Assembly: GCA_003166955.1 (NCBI GenBank)
Contig: PMUI01000124.1
Span: 1-42,105 of the forward strand
Reading direction: 5' to 3'
Source of the DNA: Acidobacterium sp.
GTDB lineage: Bacteria > Acidobacteriota > Terriglobia > Terriglobales > Acidobacteriaceae
DNA length: 42,105 nt
The translations under genes and the position numbers were made by a program. The notes beneath the pieces are model-generated. The model had not been told where the DNA came from, made no database searches, and was given only the letters and a program-made list of their open reading frames with translations. This document shows positions 27,952 through 35,052 of this stretch, in pieces. Positions within the stretch are counted from its first letter, which is position 1. Each line of letters opens with the position of its first letter.

Positions 27952-28719
27952 ATGCTCAATTTGGAAGGCCGCGTGGCGGCCGTGTTCGGACTGGCCAACA
28001 AGCGCAGCATTGCCTGGGGCATTGCGCAGAAGCTGCACGAGGCAGGCGCGAAGCTGGCAATCAGCTATCAAAACGAGCGCATGAGAGCCGAGGCCGAGGG
28101 ATTGATTCTGGATCTGCCGGGCGCGGAGCCGTTCCAATGCGATGTGTCGAACGACGCGGAGATCGAGCAGGTGTTCGCGCAGATGAAGGAGCGGTACGGG
28201 AAGCTGGACGTGCTGGTGCACTGCATCGCGTTTGCGCCGGCGGAGGATTTGAAGAACGACTTTCTGCAGACCACGCGCGAGGGGTTCAGGATTGCGCACG
28301 ATGTAAGCGTGTATTCGCTCATTGCGCTGAGCCGCGGGGCGGCTCCGCTGATGACGGAGGGCGGCTCGATTATTACGCTGACCTACTACGGAGCTGAGAA
28401 GGTGGTGCCGCACTATAAGGTGATGGGCGTCGCGAAGGCGTCGCTGGAGGCGACGGTGCGGTATCTGGCCTGGGATCTGGGGAAGCAGAATGTGCGGGTG
28501 AATGCGATTTCGGCGGGGCCGATTAAGACACTGGCAGCACGCGGGATTGGAAACCTGGGCGACATGCTGAAGTATCACGAGGACCGCGCACCGCTGCATC
28601 GCAATACAGAACAGACAGAGGTGGGCAAGACGGCGGTGTATCTGGCGTCGGACCTGGCGAGCGGCGTGACCGGGGAGACGATTTACGTGGACAGCGGTTA
28701 CAACATCATGGGGTGGTGA
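27952..28719 (+). CDS. fabI: Enoyl-[acyl-carrier-protein] reductase (NADH) FabI
   Basis: A 255-residue short-chain dehydrogenase that performs the last reduction in each round of fatty-acid elongation. The cofactor site is FGLANKRSIAWGIA, typical of FabI rather than other SDRs. The catalytic pair is Y155 and K162 in the Y-x6-K arrangement, with Y145 ten residues before Y155, as in E. coli FabI. AGPIKTLAARGI is the substrate-binding loop that covers the active site and forms the triclosan pocket. The ATG at 27952 lacks a strong ribosome site but matches the family start. Confidence 0.96.
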   Translation: MLNLEGRVAAVFGLANKRSIAWGIAQKLHEAGAKLAISYQNERMRAEAEGLILDLPGAEPFQCDVSNDAEIEQVFAQMKERYGKLDVLVHCIAFAPAEDLKNDFLQTTREGFRIAHDVSVYSLIALSRGAAPLMTEGGSIITLTYYGAEKVVPHYKVMGVAKASLEATVRYLAWDLGKQNVRVNAISAGPIKTLAARGIGNLGDMLKYHEDRAPLHRNTEQTEVGKTAVYLASDLASGVTGETIYVDSGYNIMGW

Positions 28720-28755
28720 CGCGGTGGGTGACCACGCAGAATCAAGAGATAGTGC

Positions 28756-28785
28756 AATATTAATTGCCTTTAGGCAATTAATATT
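28756..28785. promoter_or_regulatory. AT-rich perfect inverted repeat after fabI
   Basis: AATATTAATTGCC-TTTA-GGCAATTAATATT is a perfect 13-bp stem with a four-base loop, 36 bases after the fabI stop. It is strikingly AT-rich against its surroundings and is followed by TGACTT, not a T-run. It could be an operator for the downstream unit, a hairpin that ends fabI transcription, or the footprint of an inserted element. A second palindrome, GGAATTG-C-CAATTCC, is at 28841-28855. Confidence 0.4.
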
Positions 28786-28926
28786 TGACTTCCCTTGCGC
28801 GTTCCATTGCCGATCCCTTCACTGCGACGCCTGAGCAGTTGGAATTGCCAATTCCCGGGTAACCTCCCAGACGGTCTGCGGCGGCGGTGTGGAATACCGA
28901 ATGCCACTATCGACACACTCACTCTC

Positions 28927-28955
28927 TTGACACAGCTCGGACGCTGGTATGTAGT
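28927..28955 (+). promoter_or_regulatory. Promoter of the fluoride-response operon
   Basis: A perfect -35 box TTGACA (28927-28932) is followed after 17 bases by TGTAGT (28950-28955; 4 of 6 match to TATAAT). Transcription from here would begin about ten bases before the riboswitch aptamer, the expected layout. Confidence 0.5.
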
Positions 28956-28971
28956 GGAATTGAACCGGTGT

Positions 28972-29029
28972 GGTGAAGGAGTTCACCCTTAACCGCTGTC
29001 CTCGGTAGCTGGACAGATGATGACTCCTG
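28972..29029 (+). ncRNA. Fluoride riboswitch (crcB motif)
   Basis: The segment matches the crcB-motif consensus: GGTGAAGGAGTTCACC (first stem-loop), CTTAACCGC, a variable hairpin with 6-bp stem CTGTCC/GGACAG (28996-29001 and 29011-29016), then GATGATGACTCCTGA. The loop GGAGT (28978-28982) can pair with ACTCC (29023-29027), the pseudoknot that forms the fluoride/magnesium site in this riboswitch class. It sits about 65 bases before the first gene of an operon that includes crcB. The expression platform is not obvious: ACAGG-GAAT-CCTGT (about 29030-29043) can form a small hairpin, but I see no T-tract. Confidence 0.88.
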
Positions 29030-29095
29030 ACAGGGAATCCTGTTGCGGAGTCACCTTCCAGCGCGATCCCTGAAAACCAAATGTGGAGCAGGTCC

Positions 29096-30304
29096 ATGAC
29101 AAACGCGTGGAGTCTCGCGGCTTTGTGGGTGGGGTTGGCGCTGGTTGCAACGCTGCTGGCGATATGGTTCAAGGTGTCGACTGCGCTTTCGGAGATCGTG
29201 GTCGGGACGGTGGCGCAGCTCATCATCGGGGTGTTTCTCGCCAAGGGCGGACTGGCGGGCAGCACGCAGTGGATCACTTTCCTGGCAGGGACGGGCGCGA
29301 TTGTGCTGACGTTTCTGGCCGGAGCGGAACTGGACCCGGTGATCTTCCGCACAAAATGGCGTGAGTCGCTGGTGATCGGACTCGCGGGGTTCTTCGGTCC
29401 ATTTCTCGGGTGTACGGCGATCGGACACTATGTGCTGGGCTGGGACGTACGCGCGAGCTGGCTGTGCGGGGTGGCGCTTTCGACCACATCGGTCGCGGTT
29501 GTGTACGCGGTGATGCTGGAGCTCGGCTTCAACGTGACCGAGTACGGGAAGGCAATTCTGGCTGCCTGTTTTATCAACGACCTCGGAACGGTGATCTCCC
29601 TTGGTTTGATCTTTTCTCCGTTCACATTTAAGACGCTGATCTTTGTTGTGGTCTCGGCGGCTGCATTCGCGATTCTTCCTTTTCTCACGCCGCGATTCTT
29701 CCGCAAATATGGTGGGCGCGTTTCGGAACTGGAGGCGAAATATATTCTGTTCCTGCTATTCGCGATGGGCGGACTGGCGGTTTGGTCGGGGAGCGAAGCG
29801 GTACTGCCGGCCTATATCATTGGCATGGTTCTGGCGGGGACGGTGGGAAAGGATCACGCGCTCATTCGCCGCCTGCGTACGCTGACGTTCGGATTGCTGA
29901 CTCCGTTCTATTTCATCCGCGCCGGCTCGTTTGTTTCCGTACCGGCGCTGATGGCCGCTCCGCTGACGCTGGTGATTTTGTTTTTCGCCAAGATGGTGTC
30001 GAAGGCAGCGGTGGTATTCCCGGCGGTGCGGGCGCATCGCTATGACGGATCGTCGGGGATCTATTACACGCTGATGATGTCCACGGGGCTGACGTTCGGA
30101 ACGATTTCGGCGCTGTTCGGTCTGAGCCACCAGATCATCACGCAGGGTCAGTACTCGTTTCTGGTCGGCGCGGTGATTGCGAGTGCGGTGATTCCGACCA
30201 TCGTGGCGAACACATTTTTCCTGCCGCGCCATCTTCTTCCCCGCAAGGAAGCGAGTGCTCCCTCACCGCGTGCAGCGATTCAACCGGCAGTGGCGGAGGA
30301 GTGA
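29096..30304 (+). CDS. Cation/proton antiporter (CPA-type, KefB/NhaP-like)
   Basis: A 402-residue protein with about 12 membrane segments from start to end, matching the Na+/H+ exchanger (CPA) fold. The transport-site pattern is ACFINDLGTVISLGL with N161-D162, the Asn-Asp pair seen in many CPA1-like exchangers rather than Asp-Asp. TFLAGAELDP, GVALSTTSVAVVYAVM and FGLLTPFYFIRAGSFV are further family motifs. There is no C-terminal RCK domain. The ATG at 29096 is preferred (GGAGCAGG six bases upstream) over 29081. As first gene behind a fluoride riboswitch it may restore ion or pH balance as HF enters, or might itself move fluoride; this is inference. Confidence 0.88.
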   Translation: MTNAWSLAALWVGLALVATLLAIWFKVSTALSEIVVGTVAQLIIGVFLAKGGLAGSTQWITFLAGTGAIVLTFLAGAELDPVIFRTKWRESLVIGLAGFFGPFLGCTAIGHYVLGWDVRASWLCGVALSTTSVAVVYAVMLELGFNVTEYGKAILAACFINDLGTVISLGLIFSPFTFKTLIFVVVSAAAFAILPFLTPRFFRKYGGRVSELEAKYILFLLFAMGGLAVWSGSEAVLPAYIIGMVLAGTVGKDHALIRRLRTLTFGLLTPFYFIRAGSFVSVPALMAAPLTLVILFFAKMVSKAAVVFPAVRAHRYDGSSGIYYTLMMSTGLTFGTISALFGLSHQIITQGQYSFLVGAVIASAVIPTIVANTFFLPRHLLPRKEASAPSPRAAIQPAVAEE

Positions 30305-30315
30305 AAGGAGCGGCG

Positions 30316-30753
30316 ATGGGAGCCAGGGCATTCCAGGGATTTCAGACAGTCTTAGTTGCGTGGGACGGGTCGCCACAGGCGGAACACTCTTTGGAGGTGG
30401 CGCTTTCGCTTGCGTCGTCGACCGGAGCCCGTGTTGTGGTGCTGGCGGTGATTCGACCGCCCGAACCGGCGGAGAGCGCGGAACTGAACGCGGTGCTGGA
30501 AGAGGCTCGGGAACGATACGAGCGCAATTTTGCCTCGATGCAGGAGAGGGCAAAAGAAGCCGGCGTAGCGCTGGAGACGGAGGTTGCGGTTGGGCATCCG
30601 GCGGAACAGATCATCCACAAAGCGGAAACGGCGCAGGCGAGCCTGATCGTGATGGGCCGGCGAAGCCACACTGTGTTTCATCGATGGATGCTCGGCTCGA
30701 ACTCGGAGCGCGTGGTGCGGTCTGCTTATTGTCCAGTGATGGTGGTTCACTGA
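30316..30753 (+). CDS. Universal stress protein (UspA family)
   Basis: A 145-residue single-domain Usp. VLVAWDGSPQAEHSLEVALSLA is the conserved first strand and helix. AEQIIHKAETAQASLIVMGRRSHTVFHRWMLGSNSERVV is the nucleotide-binding end; the usual G-x2-G-x9-G-S/T motif is changed, with GRRS in place of G-x2-G, so ATP binding is uncertain. The ATG at 30316 has GGAG five bases upstream and lies 12 bases after the antiporter stop. Membership of the fluoride operon suggests a stress role tied to fluoride; its partner is unknown. Confidence 0.88.
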   Translation: MGARAFQGFQTVLVAWDGSPQAEHSLEVALSLASSTGARVVVLAVIRPPEPAESAELNAVLEEARERYERNFASMQERAKEAGVALETEVAVGHPAEQIIHKAETAQASLIVMGRRSHTVFHRWMLGSNSERVVRSAYCPVMVVH

Positions 30754-30833
30754 TGCGGATATTGAATTGCTGCGGAATGCTGCGCGCTTAACGGAACAGC
30801 AGAAATCGACGGCAAAGAGAAACAGGAGGAGGA

Positions 30834-31211
30834 TTGCAGAAATATTTGCTCATTGCGCTGGGAGGCGCGCTAGGATCGATCGCCCGCTATTGGGTGGGCG
30901 CAACGGTGACCGACCGGCTGGGCGCGCGCTTTCCGTACGGGACGCTGGTGATCAATCTGACGGCGTGCGCGGTCATTGGGTTCTCGCTGACGTTTCTGGG
31001 AAAGCGCGCGGGCCTGAGCTCCGCGTGGCGATACCTGGTTCCGGTCGGGTTCGTGGGGGCGTACAGTACATTTTCGACGTATGAGTGGGAGACAATGGCG
31101 CTGCTGCGTGCAGGCGGCGTGCCGGCGGCGGCGCTCTATGCCTTCGGCAGCCTGGTTCTGGGACTGGCCGCGGTGTGGTGCGGCATGCTGGCTGCGGAGT
31201 TGCTGCCATGA
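30834..31211 (+). CDS. crcB: Fluoride channel CrcB/Fluc
   Basis: A 125-residue protein with four membrane segments, the normal size of Fluc channels, which work as antiparallel dimers and let fluoride leave the cell. Family motifs: LGGALGSIARYW, FPYGTLVINLTACAVIGF (with the pore asparagine), and GFVGAYSTFSTYEWE, whose phenylalanine, serine and threonine residues line the fluoride path. Being a single gene it should form a homodimer. The start is TTG at 30834, with an excellent AGGAGG just upstream; no ATG is available at the family start. Its place downstream of a fluoride riboswitch supports the function directly. Confidence 0.96.
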   Translation: MQKYLLIALGGALGSIARYWVGATVTDRLGARFPYGTLVINLTACAVIGFSLTFLGKRAGLSSAWRYLVPVGFVGAYSTFSTYEWETMALLRAGGVPAAALYAFGSLVLGLAAVWCGMLAAELLP

Positions 31212-31233
31212 TGGCGCGTGAAGAGGAGGGAAA

Positions 31234-31959
31234 ATGCTGACCACCGGGAAAGCGCTGAAGGTTTCAATCACGGTGAGCGATGGGGCGCGGTATCACGGAG
31301 CGTCGGCGTATGCGAGCATTCTGGATTTCCTTTTCTATCGCGGCGTGAGCGGCGCGACGGTGCTGAAGGGGATCGCGGGGTTCGGCGCGGATCATCATCT
31401 GCACTCAACGAGTGTGGTGGAGGTGTCGGACAAGCTGCCTGTGCGCATTGAGTTTGTAGAGACGCGGGAGAAGGTGACCGAGCTGATGGGGAAGCTCGAG
31501 GAGATGGCGGGCACGGGGCTGATCGAAGTACAGGAGACCACGGTGGCCAAGGCTCCGCAGATCTCGAAGCAGACGAAGCCAACGCCGGAGCACATGAAGA
31601 TCGAGGGGAAGGCGCGGCTGATGCGCATCTATGTGGGTGAGTCTGACCGCTGGCACGACAAGCCGCTGCACGAGGCGCTGGTGCATGCGATGCGGGCCAA
31701 CGATATCGCCGGCGTGACGGTGTATCGTGGCGTGCTGGGGTACGGGGCGCACCGGCGCGCGCACAAAGACAAGCCACTGCACCTCTCGAAGGACGCATCG
31801 ATTATGCTGTCGGCTGTCGATATGGAGGAGAAGCTGACTGCATTTTTGCCGGTCGTCGACCAGATGGTGCAGGAAGGGCTGGTGGTGTTGTCAGATGTGG
31901 ACATCGTGAAGTATTCGTGGCGCGCGGCGGAGCTGGAGACCGGGTCGGGCGGACTGTGA
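31234..31959 (+). CDS. Double-domain DUF190 protein
   Basis: A 241-residue protein made of two DUF190 domains: residues ~5-105 (KALKVSITVSDGARYHGASAYASILDFLFYRGVSGATVLKGIAGFG) and ~125-235 (EGKARLMRIYVGESDRWHDKPLHEALVHAMRANDIAGVTVYRGVLGYG). They are joined by a Lys/Thr/Pro-rich linker. DUF190 proteins are usually ~110 residues, have a PII/ferredoxin-like fold, and are often encoded next to crcB; their job is unknown. The two halves are clearly diverged, so they are not a recent duplication. SD GAGGAGGG precedes the ATG. It follows crcB by 22 bases. Confidence 0.9.
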   Translation: MLTTGKALKVSITVSDGARYHGASAYASILDFLFYRGVSGATVLKGIAGFGADHHLHSTSVVEVSDKLPVRIEFVETREKVTELMGKLEEMAGTGLIEVQETTVAKAPQISKQTKPTPEHMKIEGKARLMRIYVGESDRWHDKPLHEALVHAMRANDIAGVTVYRGVLGYGAHRRAHKDKPLHLSKDASIMLSAVDMEEKLTAFLPVVDQMVQEGLVVLSDVDIVKYSWRAAELETGSGGL

Positions 31960-31972
31960 CGGAGATGGGGCG

Positions 31973-32326
31973 ATGAAGGAGCAGTTTGAGGCGCGAATGC
32001 TGCGCATTTTTTTCGGCGAGAGCGACAAGTGGCAGGGCAAGCCGCTGCACGAGGCGATTCTGGCGAAGTGCCAGGAGCTGGAGGTGGCGAGCGCGGTGGT
32101 TTATCGCGGCATTGAGGGCTACGGAAGCAGCACGAGGATTCATCGCGCGAGCCCGTGGAAATTTTCGCGCGACGCGCCGATGGTGGTGACGGTGATCGAT
32201 CGCGAGGAACAGATCGCGAAGCTGGTTCCGCATCTGGATGCGATGGTCGGCGAGGGGCTGATCGTGATGTCGAAGGTGGAAGTGCTGCGCTACACGCGGA
32301 CGGCGACCGAACCGAAGGCTTCCTGA
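31973..32326 (+). CDS. DUF190 protein (single domain)
   Basis: A 117-residue single DUF190 domain, more like the second half of the preceding double protein than the first: LRIFFGESDKWQGKPLHEAILAKC, VASAVVYRGIEGYG, and VVTVIDREEQIAKLVPHLDAMVGEGLIVMSKVEVLRY. The start is 13 bases after the upstream stop. Together the operon encodes three DUF190 modules, which could assemble as a PII-like trimer; that is a structural guess. The gene ends eight bases from the convergent permease gene. Confidence 0.9.
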   Translation: MKEQFEARMLRIFFGESDKWQGKPLHEAILAKCQELEVASAVVYRGIEGYGSSTRIHRASPWKFSRDAPMVVTVIDREEQIAKLVPHLDAMVGEGLIVMSKVEVLRYTRTATEPKAS

Positions 32327-32334
32327 GGTCGGCG

Positions 32335-35052
32335 TTATTCCGAACGCAGGGCCTGCATGGGATCGACGGAAGCGGCGCGGCGTGCGGGCAGGAACGATGC
32401 GAGGACCGCGATTGCGGACAGGAAGATGACGGCTGCGAGATAGATGAGGGGATTAGCGGCGGTCGCGCCCGCGAGTTGCACTCCTTTGCCCATAGCCGAG
32501 TTGGTGATGGATACGGCCGCGATGCCGCGAGCGGCTGCGAGGGCCAGAATGATGCCTGCGGCGAGGCCGACGCCGGCCAGCGTCAATCCCTGGCGCACGA
32601 CCATGCTGAGAACGCTCGCGCGGTCGGCGCCCAGCGCCATGCGAATGCCGATCTCCTGAGTTCGCTGCGCCACAGACCAGGCCATCACGCTGTAGAGTCC
32701 AACGCCAGCCAGCAGGACGGCCAGGGCGCCGAGCGCTGCCAGCAACGTTGCCGCCATTCTCTGCGGATACAGTGAGGCACCAATGAATTCACGGAGAGGA
32801 ATGGGGTCGAAGACGGTCACGTTGGGATCGATCCTGCGCACCGCAGCGCGGAGTTGGGGGAGCACAGCGATGGGATCGCCCTGGGTTCGCACATAGAATG
32901 CGAGGTTCATGTCCGCGCGGAAGACCTGGCGGAACGGGACGTACATATAAGGTACAGACGATTCGCCAAGGTAGTGGTACTTGCTGTCCTGCGCGACGCC
33001 GACGATACGGAACCAGTCTCCCCAGCCGTGGACTTTGCGGCCGATCGGATCGCGCCCGGCGAAGAATCGCTGCACAAAAGCCTGGTTGACGATCATGACC
33101 AGAGGCGAATTGTCCTTCTCGTCGTCCTGTTCGGTGAGGTTGCGGCCTTCGACGATGGGGATGCGCAGCAGAGGGAGATAGCCGGGCGAGATCACATTGC
33201 GGAAGATCTTCATATTCTCGCCAGCAGAGGGCGTGTAGCGTTCGACGCGCAGGTCTTCCCACCAGCTTGGCTCAAAGCCCAGCGCCACACCGTCGGAGTA
33301 GGCGACGTTGGTAACTCCTGGAGTGGATTCCATTTCTGCAGCGAGGCGGCGGCAAAATTCTTTTCTCTGCTCGAGACTGTAGCCGTTGGCCGTCAGGTAA
33401 AACTGGTTCAGCAGAACGTGATTCGGATCGAATCCCGGATCGATGCGGCTGGTTTGCTGGAAACTGCGGGCGAGCAGCGCAGCGCACACCAGGGCAACGA
33501 GGGCCAGGGCGACTTCCGAGGCAACGAGAGCCGAGCGCAGACGGTGGCGCCCACGTCCAGCCGCACCACTGCGTCCGCCAGCGCTCAGCTTCGTGTTCAG
33601 ATCCGCGCGACCGGAGACCAGGGCCGGCACGATGCCGGCGGCCAGGGTTGCGAGCACGCATAATCCCGCCGTAAACACGAGCACATGCGGGTGCAGTCCG
33701 GTACCGAGGGTGAGGGACAACTGCCCTGGGGGCATGAGCGCCTGGAGAAGGCGGCTCAGCCAGGGTGTCGCAGCCACGCCGAGAATTGTGCCGGCGGCGG
33801 TGATCATCAGGCTCTCGGTGAGAACCTGCTGGACGAGACGGCGGCGGTTGGCGCCCAGTGCGAGGCGGGTGCTGAATTCCTTTTCGCGCACCGTGGCACG
33901 GGCCAGGAGAAGATTCGCGACGTTGACGCAGACGATTCCCAGAAGCAAAATGCAAACGCCCATGAGGGTGCGCAGCGGGCCGGCGAGCAGTCCCTGCGGG
34001 CCATGGGGCCACTTCGAGAGCGGCAGCAGTGTGGCGCTCATGCCCTGGCTGACGTCGGCGTTGGCGATGGCCATGCGCCCGGCTAGCGCTGCTAGTTCCT
34101 GGGTCGCCTGTTGCATAGTCACGCCTGGACGCAGCCGCGCGATGCCGAGCATGTTGCGGTTCTGGCGGTTGCGCAGCATCCACGCGCCGACGCCGTTGAG
34201 CACCGGCTGCTGCATGTACGGCACCCAAAGATCGAAGGCGACTGCTGTGATGGAGCCGTGGAATTCCGCCGGTGCGATGCCGACCACAGTCAGCTCATGC
34301 TGATTAACGCGAATGGTTTTGCCGACGATGTTCGGGTCGGCGGCATAGTGGGATCGCCAGTAGCGATCGCTGATGACGGCCACAGGAAAGGCTCCCGGCT
34401 TGTCGCCATACTCATCGGAGGAGAACATGCGGCCCAACTCCGGCTGCACACCCAGCACGGTGAAGTAATTTCCGGAGACCAGTTCGCCCCACACCCGCTC
34501 CGCATGGTCGTCTTTGCCGACGCTGAAGGCGGCGGGGCGCGTGACCGCGATGCCCTTCAGCATTTTCAGATGGTCGCGAAAATCCTGATAGTCGGGATAG
34601 GAATTGGGGACCCATTCACCGCCGGGCGTGACGGATTCGAGCGCGACCAGACGCTCGGGATCGCTGACTCCGCCGAGGGGACGCAGGAGGACCGTGTCGA
34701 TCCAGCTGAAGGCCGTGGTGCTGACGCCGATGCCGACGGCAAGAGTCAGGATCGCCACCGCTGCGAATGCGGGATTGCGTGCCATCATGCGCAGACCGTA
34801 GCGCGCGTCCTGCAGGATATCGTCGAGGCGGGGAAGGGTGGCGCGTTCGCGATACGCCTGCCTGGTTTGCTCGACGCCGCCGAGCTGGATCAATGCCTGG
34901 CGGCGTGCTTGTTCGGGTGACATGCCGGAGCGGAGGTTGTCGTCGATGTGCATCTGGAGATGGCTCTCGAGTTCGGCGTTGAAGTCGGTGGCCGCGGCTT
35001 GGGAGGCGACCAGACCGCGGAGGCGGAACCAGAGTGCTCTGAGCTTGCGCAT
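32335..35052 (-). CDS. ADOP-family permease (MacB/FtsX-like), second of pair
   Basis: A 905-residue protein of the acidobacterial duplicated orphan permease type. N-terminal cytoplasmic ADOP segment: FNAELESHLQMHIDDNLRSGMSPEQARRQALIQLGG. Then comes a first membrane helix (FAAVAILTLAVGIGVSTTAFS), a MacB-like periplasmic domain, FtsX membrane helices around residues 360-460 (ILLLGIVCVNVANLLLARA), a second periplasmic domain, and three final helices with the ending ARRAASVDPMQALRSE. No ATPase is encoded here, hence 'orphan'. Substrate is unknown; MacB relatives move peptides, lipoproteins or antibiotics. The ATG at 35052 has AGGAAGG upstream and lies eight bases after the first permease gene. 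Much longer N-terminal open-frame extensions are not used. Confidence 0.88.
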   Translation of the reverse strand: MRKLRALWFRLRGLVASQAAATDFNAELESHLQMHIDDNLRSGMSPEQARRQALIQLGGVEQTRQAYRERATLPRLDDILQDARYGLRMMARNPAFAAVAILTLAVGIGVSTTAFSWIDTVLLRPLGGVSDPERLVALESVTPGGEWVPNSYPDYQDFRDHLKMLKGIAVTRPAAFSVGKDDHAERVWGELVSGNYFTVLGVQPELGRMFSSDEYGDKPGAFPVAVISDRYWRSHYAADPNIVGKTIRVNQHELTVVGIAPAEFHGSITAVAFDLWVPYMQQPVLNGVGAWMLRNRQNRNMLGIARLRPGVTMQQATQELAALAGRMAIANADVSQGMSATLLPLSKWPHGPQGLLAGPLRTLMGVCILLLGIVCVNVANLLLARATVREKEFSTRLALGANRRRLVQQVLTESLMITAAGTILGVAATPWLSRLLQALMPPGQLSLTLGTGLHPHVLVFTAGLCVLATLAAGIVPALVSGRADLNTKLSAGGRSGAAGRGRHRLRSALVASEVALALVALVCAALLARSFQQTSRIDPGFDPNHVLLNQFYLTANGYSLEQRKEFCRRLAAEMESTPGVTNVAYSDGVALGFEPSWWEDLRVERYTPSAGENMKIFRNVISPGYLPLLRIPIVEGRNLTEQDDEKDNSPLVMIVNQAFVQRFFAGRDPIGRKVHGWGDWFRIVGVAQDSKYHYLGESSVPYMYVPFRQVFRADMNLAFYVRTQGDPIAVLPQLRAAVRRIDPNVTVFDPIPLREFIGASLYPQRMAATLLAALGALAVLLAGVGLYSVMAWSVAQRTQEIGIRMALGADRASVLSMVVRQGLTLAGVGLAAGIILALAAARGIAAVSITNSAMGKGVQLAGATAANPLIYLAAVIFLSAIAVLASFLPARRAASVDPMQALRSE

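Follow-up and report, generated by a model that had tools for sequence, protein, structure and literature searches.

The fluoride riboswitches of Bacillus cereus and Thermotoga petrophila are the closest described relatives of the element studied here. In the available parts of the published accounts, these RF01734 switches have a GGAGT/ACTCC pseudoknot, a set of linchpin positions and, further downstream, a hairpin in competition for the 3' strand of the pseudoknot (PMC11077080, PMC8752731). At the level of gene content, a close comparison is the six-gene operon of Enterobacter cloacae FRM, which includes uspA, crcB and a fluoride riboswitch and has been studied by knockout; its other genes are ppaC, eno, gpmA and orf5249, and no cation antiporter or DUF190 gene is mentioned in the part of the report available to us (PMC5533749). 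Finally, Na+/H+ antiporters are given, in the accessible portion of a review, as the next-most common class of fluoride riboswitch-associated genes after the exporters, which means that the riboswitch-antiporter association is already published as a class (PMC11139923).

The locus described here lies in a 42,105-nt stretch of DNA from a soil-dwelling Acidobacterium sp., which is referred to as the window. It shares with the B. cereus and T. petrophila switches the aptamer architecture, the pseudoknot, the linchpin positions and the competing downstream hairpin, but it differs from them in having A for U in the core, an OFF hairpin that absorbs P2, an extra and mutually exclusive hairpin P4, and no U-tract. 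As in E. cloacae FRM, crcB and a universal stress protein gene (usp) stand in one fluoride riboswitch operon, though one without an enolase or pyrophosphatase gene. The likeness to the published antiporter class, an antiporter gene that a fluoride switch directly precedes and controls, is one at class level. The aptamer and its regulon are ordinary and this kind of switch is well known; the less ordinary part looks like the leader platform that is common to this acidobacterial group.

When the window was searched against Rfam with cmscan, RF01734 (fluoride riboswitch, gathering score 34) matched positions 28963-29036 of the forward strand with 37.7 bits and an E-value of 4.9e-07, and no other Rfam family matched at its gathering threshold anywhere in the 42,105 bases. 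For comparison of leaders, we used a MAFFT alignment (A2) of 32 sequences, consisting of the window, 30 loci from named genomes and locus L115. The group does not include L041 and L059, which have long inserts in P2, L050 (N run), L053 (5' end cut), L097, or L038 and L099, which lie at a contig edge without an upstream aptamer. The elements of the leader are as follows.

28927-28955, + strand: promoter, with TTGACA at 28927-28932, a 17-nt spacer and TGTAGT at 28950-28955 (the -10 element by our own reading)
28963-29036, + strand: fluoride riboswitch aptamer, RF01734 (37.7 bits; 45.9 bits with our own model R2)
28972-28975/28984-28987, + strand: P1 (100% of cells paired in 32 leaders)
28996-29001/29011-29016, + strand: P2, 6 bp (95.8% of cells paired in 32 leaders)
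28978-28982/29023-29027, + strand: pseudoknot GGAGT/ACTCC, the 3' strand ACTCC being also used by the OFF hairpin
29008-29062, + strand: OFF hairpin, 23 pairs, the minimum-energy fold, which takes the 3' strands of P2 and of the pseudoknot
29031-29072, + strand: hairpin P4, which cannot form together with the OFF hairpin but is compatible with the aptamer

The pseudoknot pairs are unvarying in 32 of 32 leaders, an invariance that on its own neither supports nor opposes the pairing. Also present and unvarying in these leaders are the positions that we take, by our own mapping, to be the linchpin A40-U48 (A 29020 and U 29028) and U41 (U 29021). A preliminary description of this DNA had placed the switch at 28927-29029 and had suggested the Infernal search reported above. 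The aptamer strings, the 6-bp hairpin and the pseudoknot can all be read in the window as it quoted them; the end at 29029 was too early, since the expression platform extends to about 29072. Judged from its sequence, the feature is a true fluoride riboswitch.

The same description had put a TTGACA promoter about ten bases before the aptamer. This promoter is present, but TTGACA starts 36 bases before the Rfam match, and the -10 element TGTAGT ends 7 bases ahead of that match and 16 ahead of P1. In the window's acidobacterial group, 34 of 35 leaders (counted with L050 and without L053) have the motif TTGAC in the 55 nt that precede the aptamer; the motif occurs in 157 of 3700 random stretches of that length and in 11 of 39 leaders from other lineages. 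The promoter at 28927-28955 was not listed by a consensus promoter scan. Just after fabI (27952-28719), an inverted repeat of 13 perfectly matched base pairs around a 4-base loop was read by eye at 28756-28785; this repeat, which the terminator scan did not list, probably either terminates fabI or marks a boundary ahead of the promoter of the riboswitch.

Downstream of the aptamer there are two mutually exclusive conserved structures. For the OFF hairpin, 84.1% of cells in the 32 leaders are paired, compared to 37.6-50.1% for slid versions of the same helix; 21 cells have both sides changed (shuffle mean 8.1), the covariation score is 0.140 (0.110 in shuffles), and for each of these three measures none of 500 shuffles was as high. 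Two further measures did not rise above the shuffle level, namely the four pairs changed on both sides (reached by 89 of 500 shuffles, and so not above chance) and the 17 further pair types (reached by 279 of 500). Folds of the growing transcript, predicted without pseudoknot energy, retain P1 and P2 to about 29061 and have the OFF hairpin by 29066.

Hairpin P4 was unsupported on alignment A2, where its helices have 61.5 and 64.1% of cells paired and where the whole ON structure scores 0.066, below the 0.076 of the shuffles. Because the tail is shifted between subclades in A2, alignment-free tests were used for P4. The hairpin beats 95% of shuffles that preserve base composition, though not dinucleotides, in 29 of 35 leaders; the mis-segmented L057 and L058 are among the six that fail. 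Pairs were then counted in 34 anchored leaders (L036 and L057 could not be anchored, and L050 is without the strand). Since the GGA/TCC anchor letters of P4 were chosen, the three pairs outside the anchor alone count: pair -1 is GC in 19 leaders, CG in 9, AU in 2 and unpaired in 4; pair -2 is AU in 16, GC in 10 and unpaired in 8; and pair -3 is formed in 15. Together, 71 of 102 cells are paired, where shuffles give a mean of 47.6 (sd 4.8) and a maximum of 66. These compensatory exchanges track two or three subclades and therefore represent few independent events.

We consider it highly probable that a fluoride-activated riboswitch controls the antiporter-usp-crcB-DUF190-DUF190 operon by switching between the two exclusive hairpins. 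Transcription would begin near 28962, so that the aptamer would be the first element to fold. Mg2+-bound fluoride would lock the pseudoknot and thereby withhold its 3' strand, P4 at 29031-29072 could then fold, and expression would continue. Without fluoride, the segment 29046-29062 would invade to form the hairpin at 29008-29062, which would dismantle the pseudoknot and P2 and stop expression. CrcB would release fluoride from the cell, while the antiporter may offset the acid and ion load brought by HF. We count it in favour of the fluoride mechanism that, in the same genus, the L115 leader drives crcB-DUF190 directly.

In the window, neither hairpin is followed by a U-tract (of the 8 bases behind the inner helix, 2 are T), and the consensus scan listed no terminator at the leader. 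The preliminary description had credited the switch with a defined mechanism, and this is correct for the type of aptamer; since the platform has no U-tract to mark an intrinsic terminator, how the aptamer acts on expression is something that we infer. In five distant antiporter leaders (L073, L076, L085, L092, L106), the matching hairpin runs into a T-run (U-run) terminator, and in six Syntrophaceae-type leaders (L102-L104, L109-L111) the competing hairpin encloses the Shine-Dalgarno sequence (SD), which precedes the start codon by 2-4 nt. One competing strand therefore serves different outputs. Within the proposed fluoride mechanism, we lean towards a transcriptional output for the window, perhaps a factor-dependent one.

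A translational output of the same switch with the same ligand seems rather unlikely to us. Here, ACUCC or the P4 3' strand CCUG would pair with the SD at 29085-29092 when fluoride is absent, and fluoride would free the SD. Such an output would be consistent with the lack of a U-tract in the group leaders, with the position of the SD in the Syntrophaceae-type relatives, with a full-leader fold in which CCUG 29069-29072 is paired with CAGG 29089-29092, and with 10 of the 36 group rows, where the pseudoknot 3' strand has its longest complement in the SD region. In the window, however, this longest complement is the platform hairpin and not the SD. Moreover, the predicted access of the SD in 32 leaders (L038, L041, L050, L059 and L053 left out) has a mean of 0.38 with the aptamer free and 0.37 with it locked, being higher by 0.15 in two leaders and lower in two, and the values for the window are 0.48 free and 0.52 locked in this model without pseudoknot energy.

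We tentatively suggest, as something short of an even prospect, that the acidobacterial leaders are a distinct fluoride riboswitch subtype with a non-U core and two exclusive hairpins, which would act without a U-tract or a change in ribosome-binding site access through a factor-dependent step (Rho, NusA/NusG or RNA cleavage). No factor-dependent step for fluoride switches was found described in the available parts of the literature searched. In a separate set of crcB-first leaders (L002, L013, L014, L017, L022, L028), a copy of ACTCCATCG is located 3' of the aptamer, right after the SD and overlapping the GTG start region; it is complementary to the CGATGGAGT of the aptamer, and in sequence this arrangement looks like a translational platform.

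The genes behind the switch are the following.

29096-30304, + strand: CPA-type cation/proton antiporter gene (PF00999, sodium/hydrogen exchanger superfamily, 100.4 bits against a cut-off of 26.2; start at 29081 according to the ORF lister)
30301-30753, + strand: usp gene (PF00582, 110.9 bits)
30834-31211, + strand: crcB (Fluc) fluoride channel gene (PF02537, 92.4 bits; TIGR00494, 104.9 against an equivalog cut-off of 80.45)
31234-31959, + strand: tandem DUF190 (PII-like) gene (PF02641, 198.9 bits in two stretches; solved relatives 1o51 and 2dcl)
31973-32326, + strand: single DUF190 gene, the last of the operon (PF02641, 118.8 bits)

The antiporter likely starts at the ATG at 29096, because 402-residue homologues align from this position. 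There is a 4-nt overlap between antiporter and usp, the later gaps are 80 nt (usp-crcB), 22 nt and 13 nt, and a convergent gene beyond the operon terminates at 32335. The draft genome (5.4 Mb in 142 contigs, 99.4% complete) has one RF01734 match, one crcB and one antiporter of this kind, all of them at the window locus. With five same-strand open reading frames, single copies in the genome and a linkage that is kept in relatives, the five-gene operon of the preliminary description is borne out, as is its statement that the first gene after the switch encodes the antiporter rather than CrcB.

It is improbable, in our judgment, that the switch governs only the antiporter and usp while the crcB and DUF190 genes are expressed independently. 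The widest gap of the operon does separate usp from crcB, some relatives have a second aptamer ahead of the later genes, and in L115 the leader directly precedes crcB-DUF190 without an antiporter. Yet RF01734 has no second match in the window or the genome, the antiporter, crcB and DUF190 genes are grouped on one strand in many relatives, and no promoter-like site was found on the + strand of 28720-32400 by the consensus scan, which also missed the operon's own promoter.

The antiporter scores 92.6 bits against TIGR00932 (CPA2 subfamily), which is far below the cut-off of 238.3. By sequence, its nearest solved relatives are KefC (8bxg, E 1.5e-07) and the Na+/H+ antiporter 4bwz (E 3.2e-05), which we take to be NapA, and the similarity to these KefC and NapA-type antiporters covers most of the transport domain. 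In the alignment, the presumed ion site is Asn-Asp as opposed to Gln-Asp in KefC; among 81 sequences it is ND in 77, TD in 3 and unread in 1. Asn-Asp suggests electroneutral exchange. The protein may help to keep pH and ions in balance when HF stresses the cell.

The scan of named genomes gave 94 antiporter relatives, of which the best 80 were kept. These are mostly from Acidobacteriota, with others from Nitrospirota, Syntrophaceae, Rokubacteria, Bacteroidetes, Alphaproteobacteria and further MAGs. Using the aptamer model R2, which was built from 25 aptamers and scored on the same strand up to 450 nt upstream of the antiporter, we found an aptamer at 75 of these best 80 loci, 74 times at E<=0.01 and once, in L050, as a weak match that is interrupted by N (15.6 bits, E 0.14). 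Four of the five loci without an aptamer in this range (L038, L088, L098, L099) begin no more than 40 bases from the end of a contig, and the fifth, L065, has an aptamer about 810 nt upstream. The linkage is therefore no local accident. Fluoride switches are frequent across this bacterial family, where RF01734 matched in 100 of 120 genomes at E<=0.001 and above its cut-off in 92 of 120. The operons of the relatives are variable: usp, crcB and DUF190 genes recur, and in some an enolase gene and a dynamin-family GTPase gene are interposed.

Several other fluoride loci were noted in passing. The same-genus locus L112 has an aptamer before a run of complex I/hydrogenase-like subunit genes (L112:1805-11976; PF00146, PF00361, PF00346, PF01058), which may be compared with the riboswitch-associated formate hydrogen lyase genes mentioned in the accessible portion of PMC11139923. 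At L090:7642-8963, a second fluoride aptamer follows the antiporter and usp and directly precedes a gene for a CLC-type channel (PF00654), as one would expect of an EriC-F/CLC-F. Dynamin-family GTPase genes were seen directly behind or inside fluoride-switch operons (L032:3553-5727, L039:4031-5782, L112:14229-16574, L076:8004-9404); they often adjoin enolase, and the L076 protein also matches parts of enolase. No publication pairing a fluoride riboswitch with dynamin was found among the matches listed.

The core segment GAUGG contains a U that is presumably U7. Where most aptamers have this U, the window has A, at 28977; the position is a consensus and not a defining one, and RF01734 still matches. 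Of 167 aptamer matches, 154 remained after removal of repeats; for the count of core letters, those of L053 and L100 were set by hand and that of L033:7653 was left unread. The position is non-U in all 35 antiporter aptamers counted for the group (A 23, G 10, C 2; L053 included, L050 not), while it is U in the other 39 antiporter-linked aptamers and in 29 of 30 crcB-first aptamers. The sole non-U aptamer of the crcB-first kind is that of L115, a leader of this type ahead of crcB and DUF190 in the same genus. In all, 16 non-U or unread aptamers do not precede the antiporter, and the next gene was identified for 12 of them; L051, L012 and L113:6704 were outside the scan, and the gene after the L033 aptamer matched no family. 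Non-U aptamers were found before genes for enolase (L112, L009, L023), pyrophosphatase (L113, L120, L114), a MutS-domain protein (L120), a universal stress protein (L057) and a dynamin-family protein (L039), and, as weak aptamer matches, before metallophosphatase genes in L035 and L114.

In other riboswitch classes, an altered core position can be the sign of a new ligand. Both enolase and pyrophosphatase are inhibited by fluoride, according to the available part of the E. cloacae report (PMC5533749). Because genes for CrcB, enolase and pyrophosphatase follow aptamers of the non-U subtype, this subtype very likely retains fluoride as its ligand. That the subtype has drifted to another ligand or lost its function, as the near-perfect division of U and non-U between crcB-first and group aptamers might suggest, is very improbable given these downstream genes, the unvarying pseudoknot and mapped linchpin positions in 32 leaders, and the statement, in the available part of one paper, that fluoride makes no contact with any particular nucleotide and instead bridges Mg2+ at the phosphates of the backbone (PMC8752731).

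The genomes of L120, L121, L009, L012 and L023 (G114, G062, G104) contain many fluoride aptamers, with 14 matches in G114 and 5 in G062. Some of these are arranged back-to-back on opposite strands, about 160-180 nt apart, with one U and one non-U aptamer.

If the proposal is true, the antiporter and the single crcB detected in this genome would belong to one testable fluoride-induced unit. The near-constant pairing with an aptamer, at 75 of the best 80 of 94 loci, marks the antiporter clade as a fluoride-stress transporter worth assaying. The platform is lineage-wide and is the part of specialist interest, as it offers a concrete case for how a riboswitch may stop expression without a U-tract.
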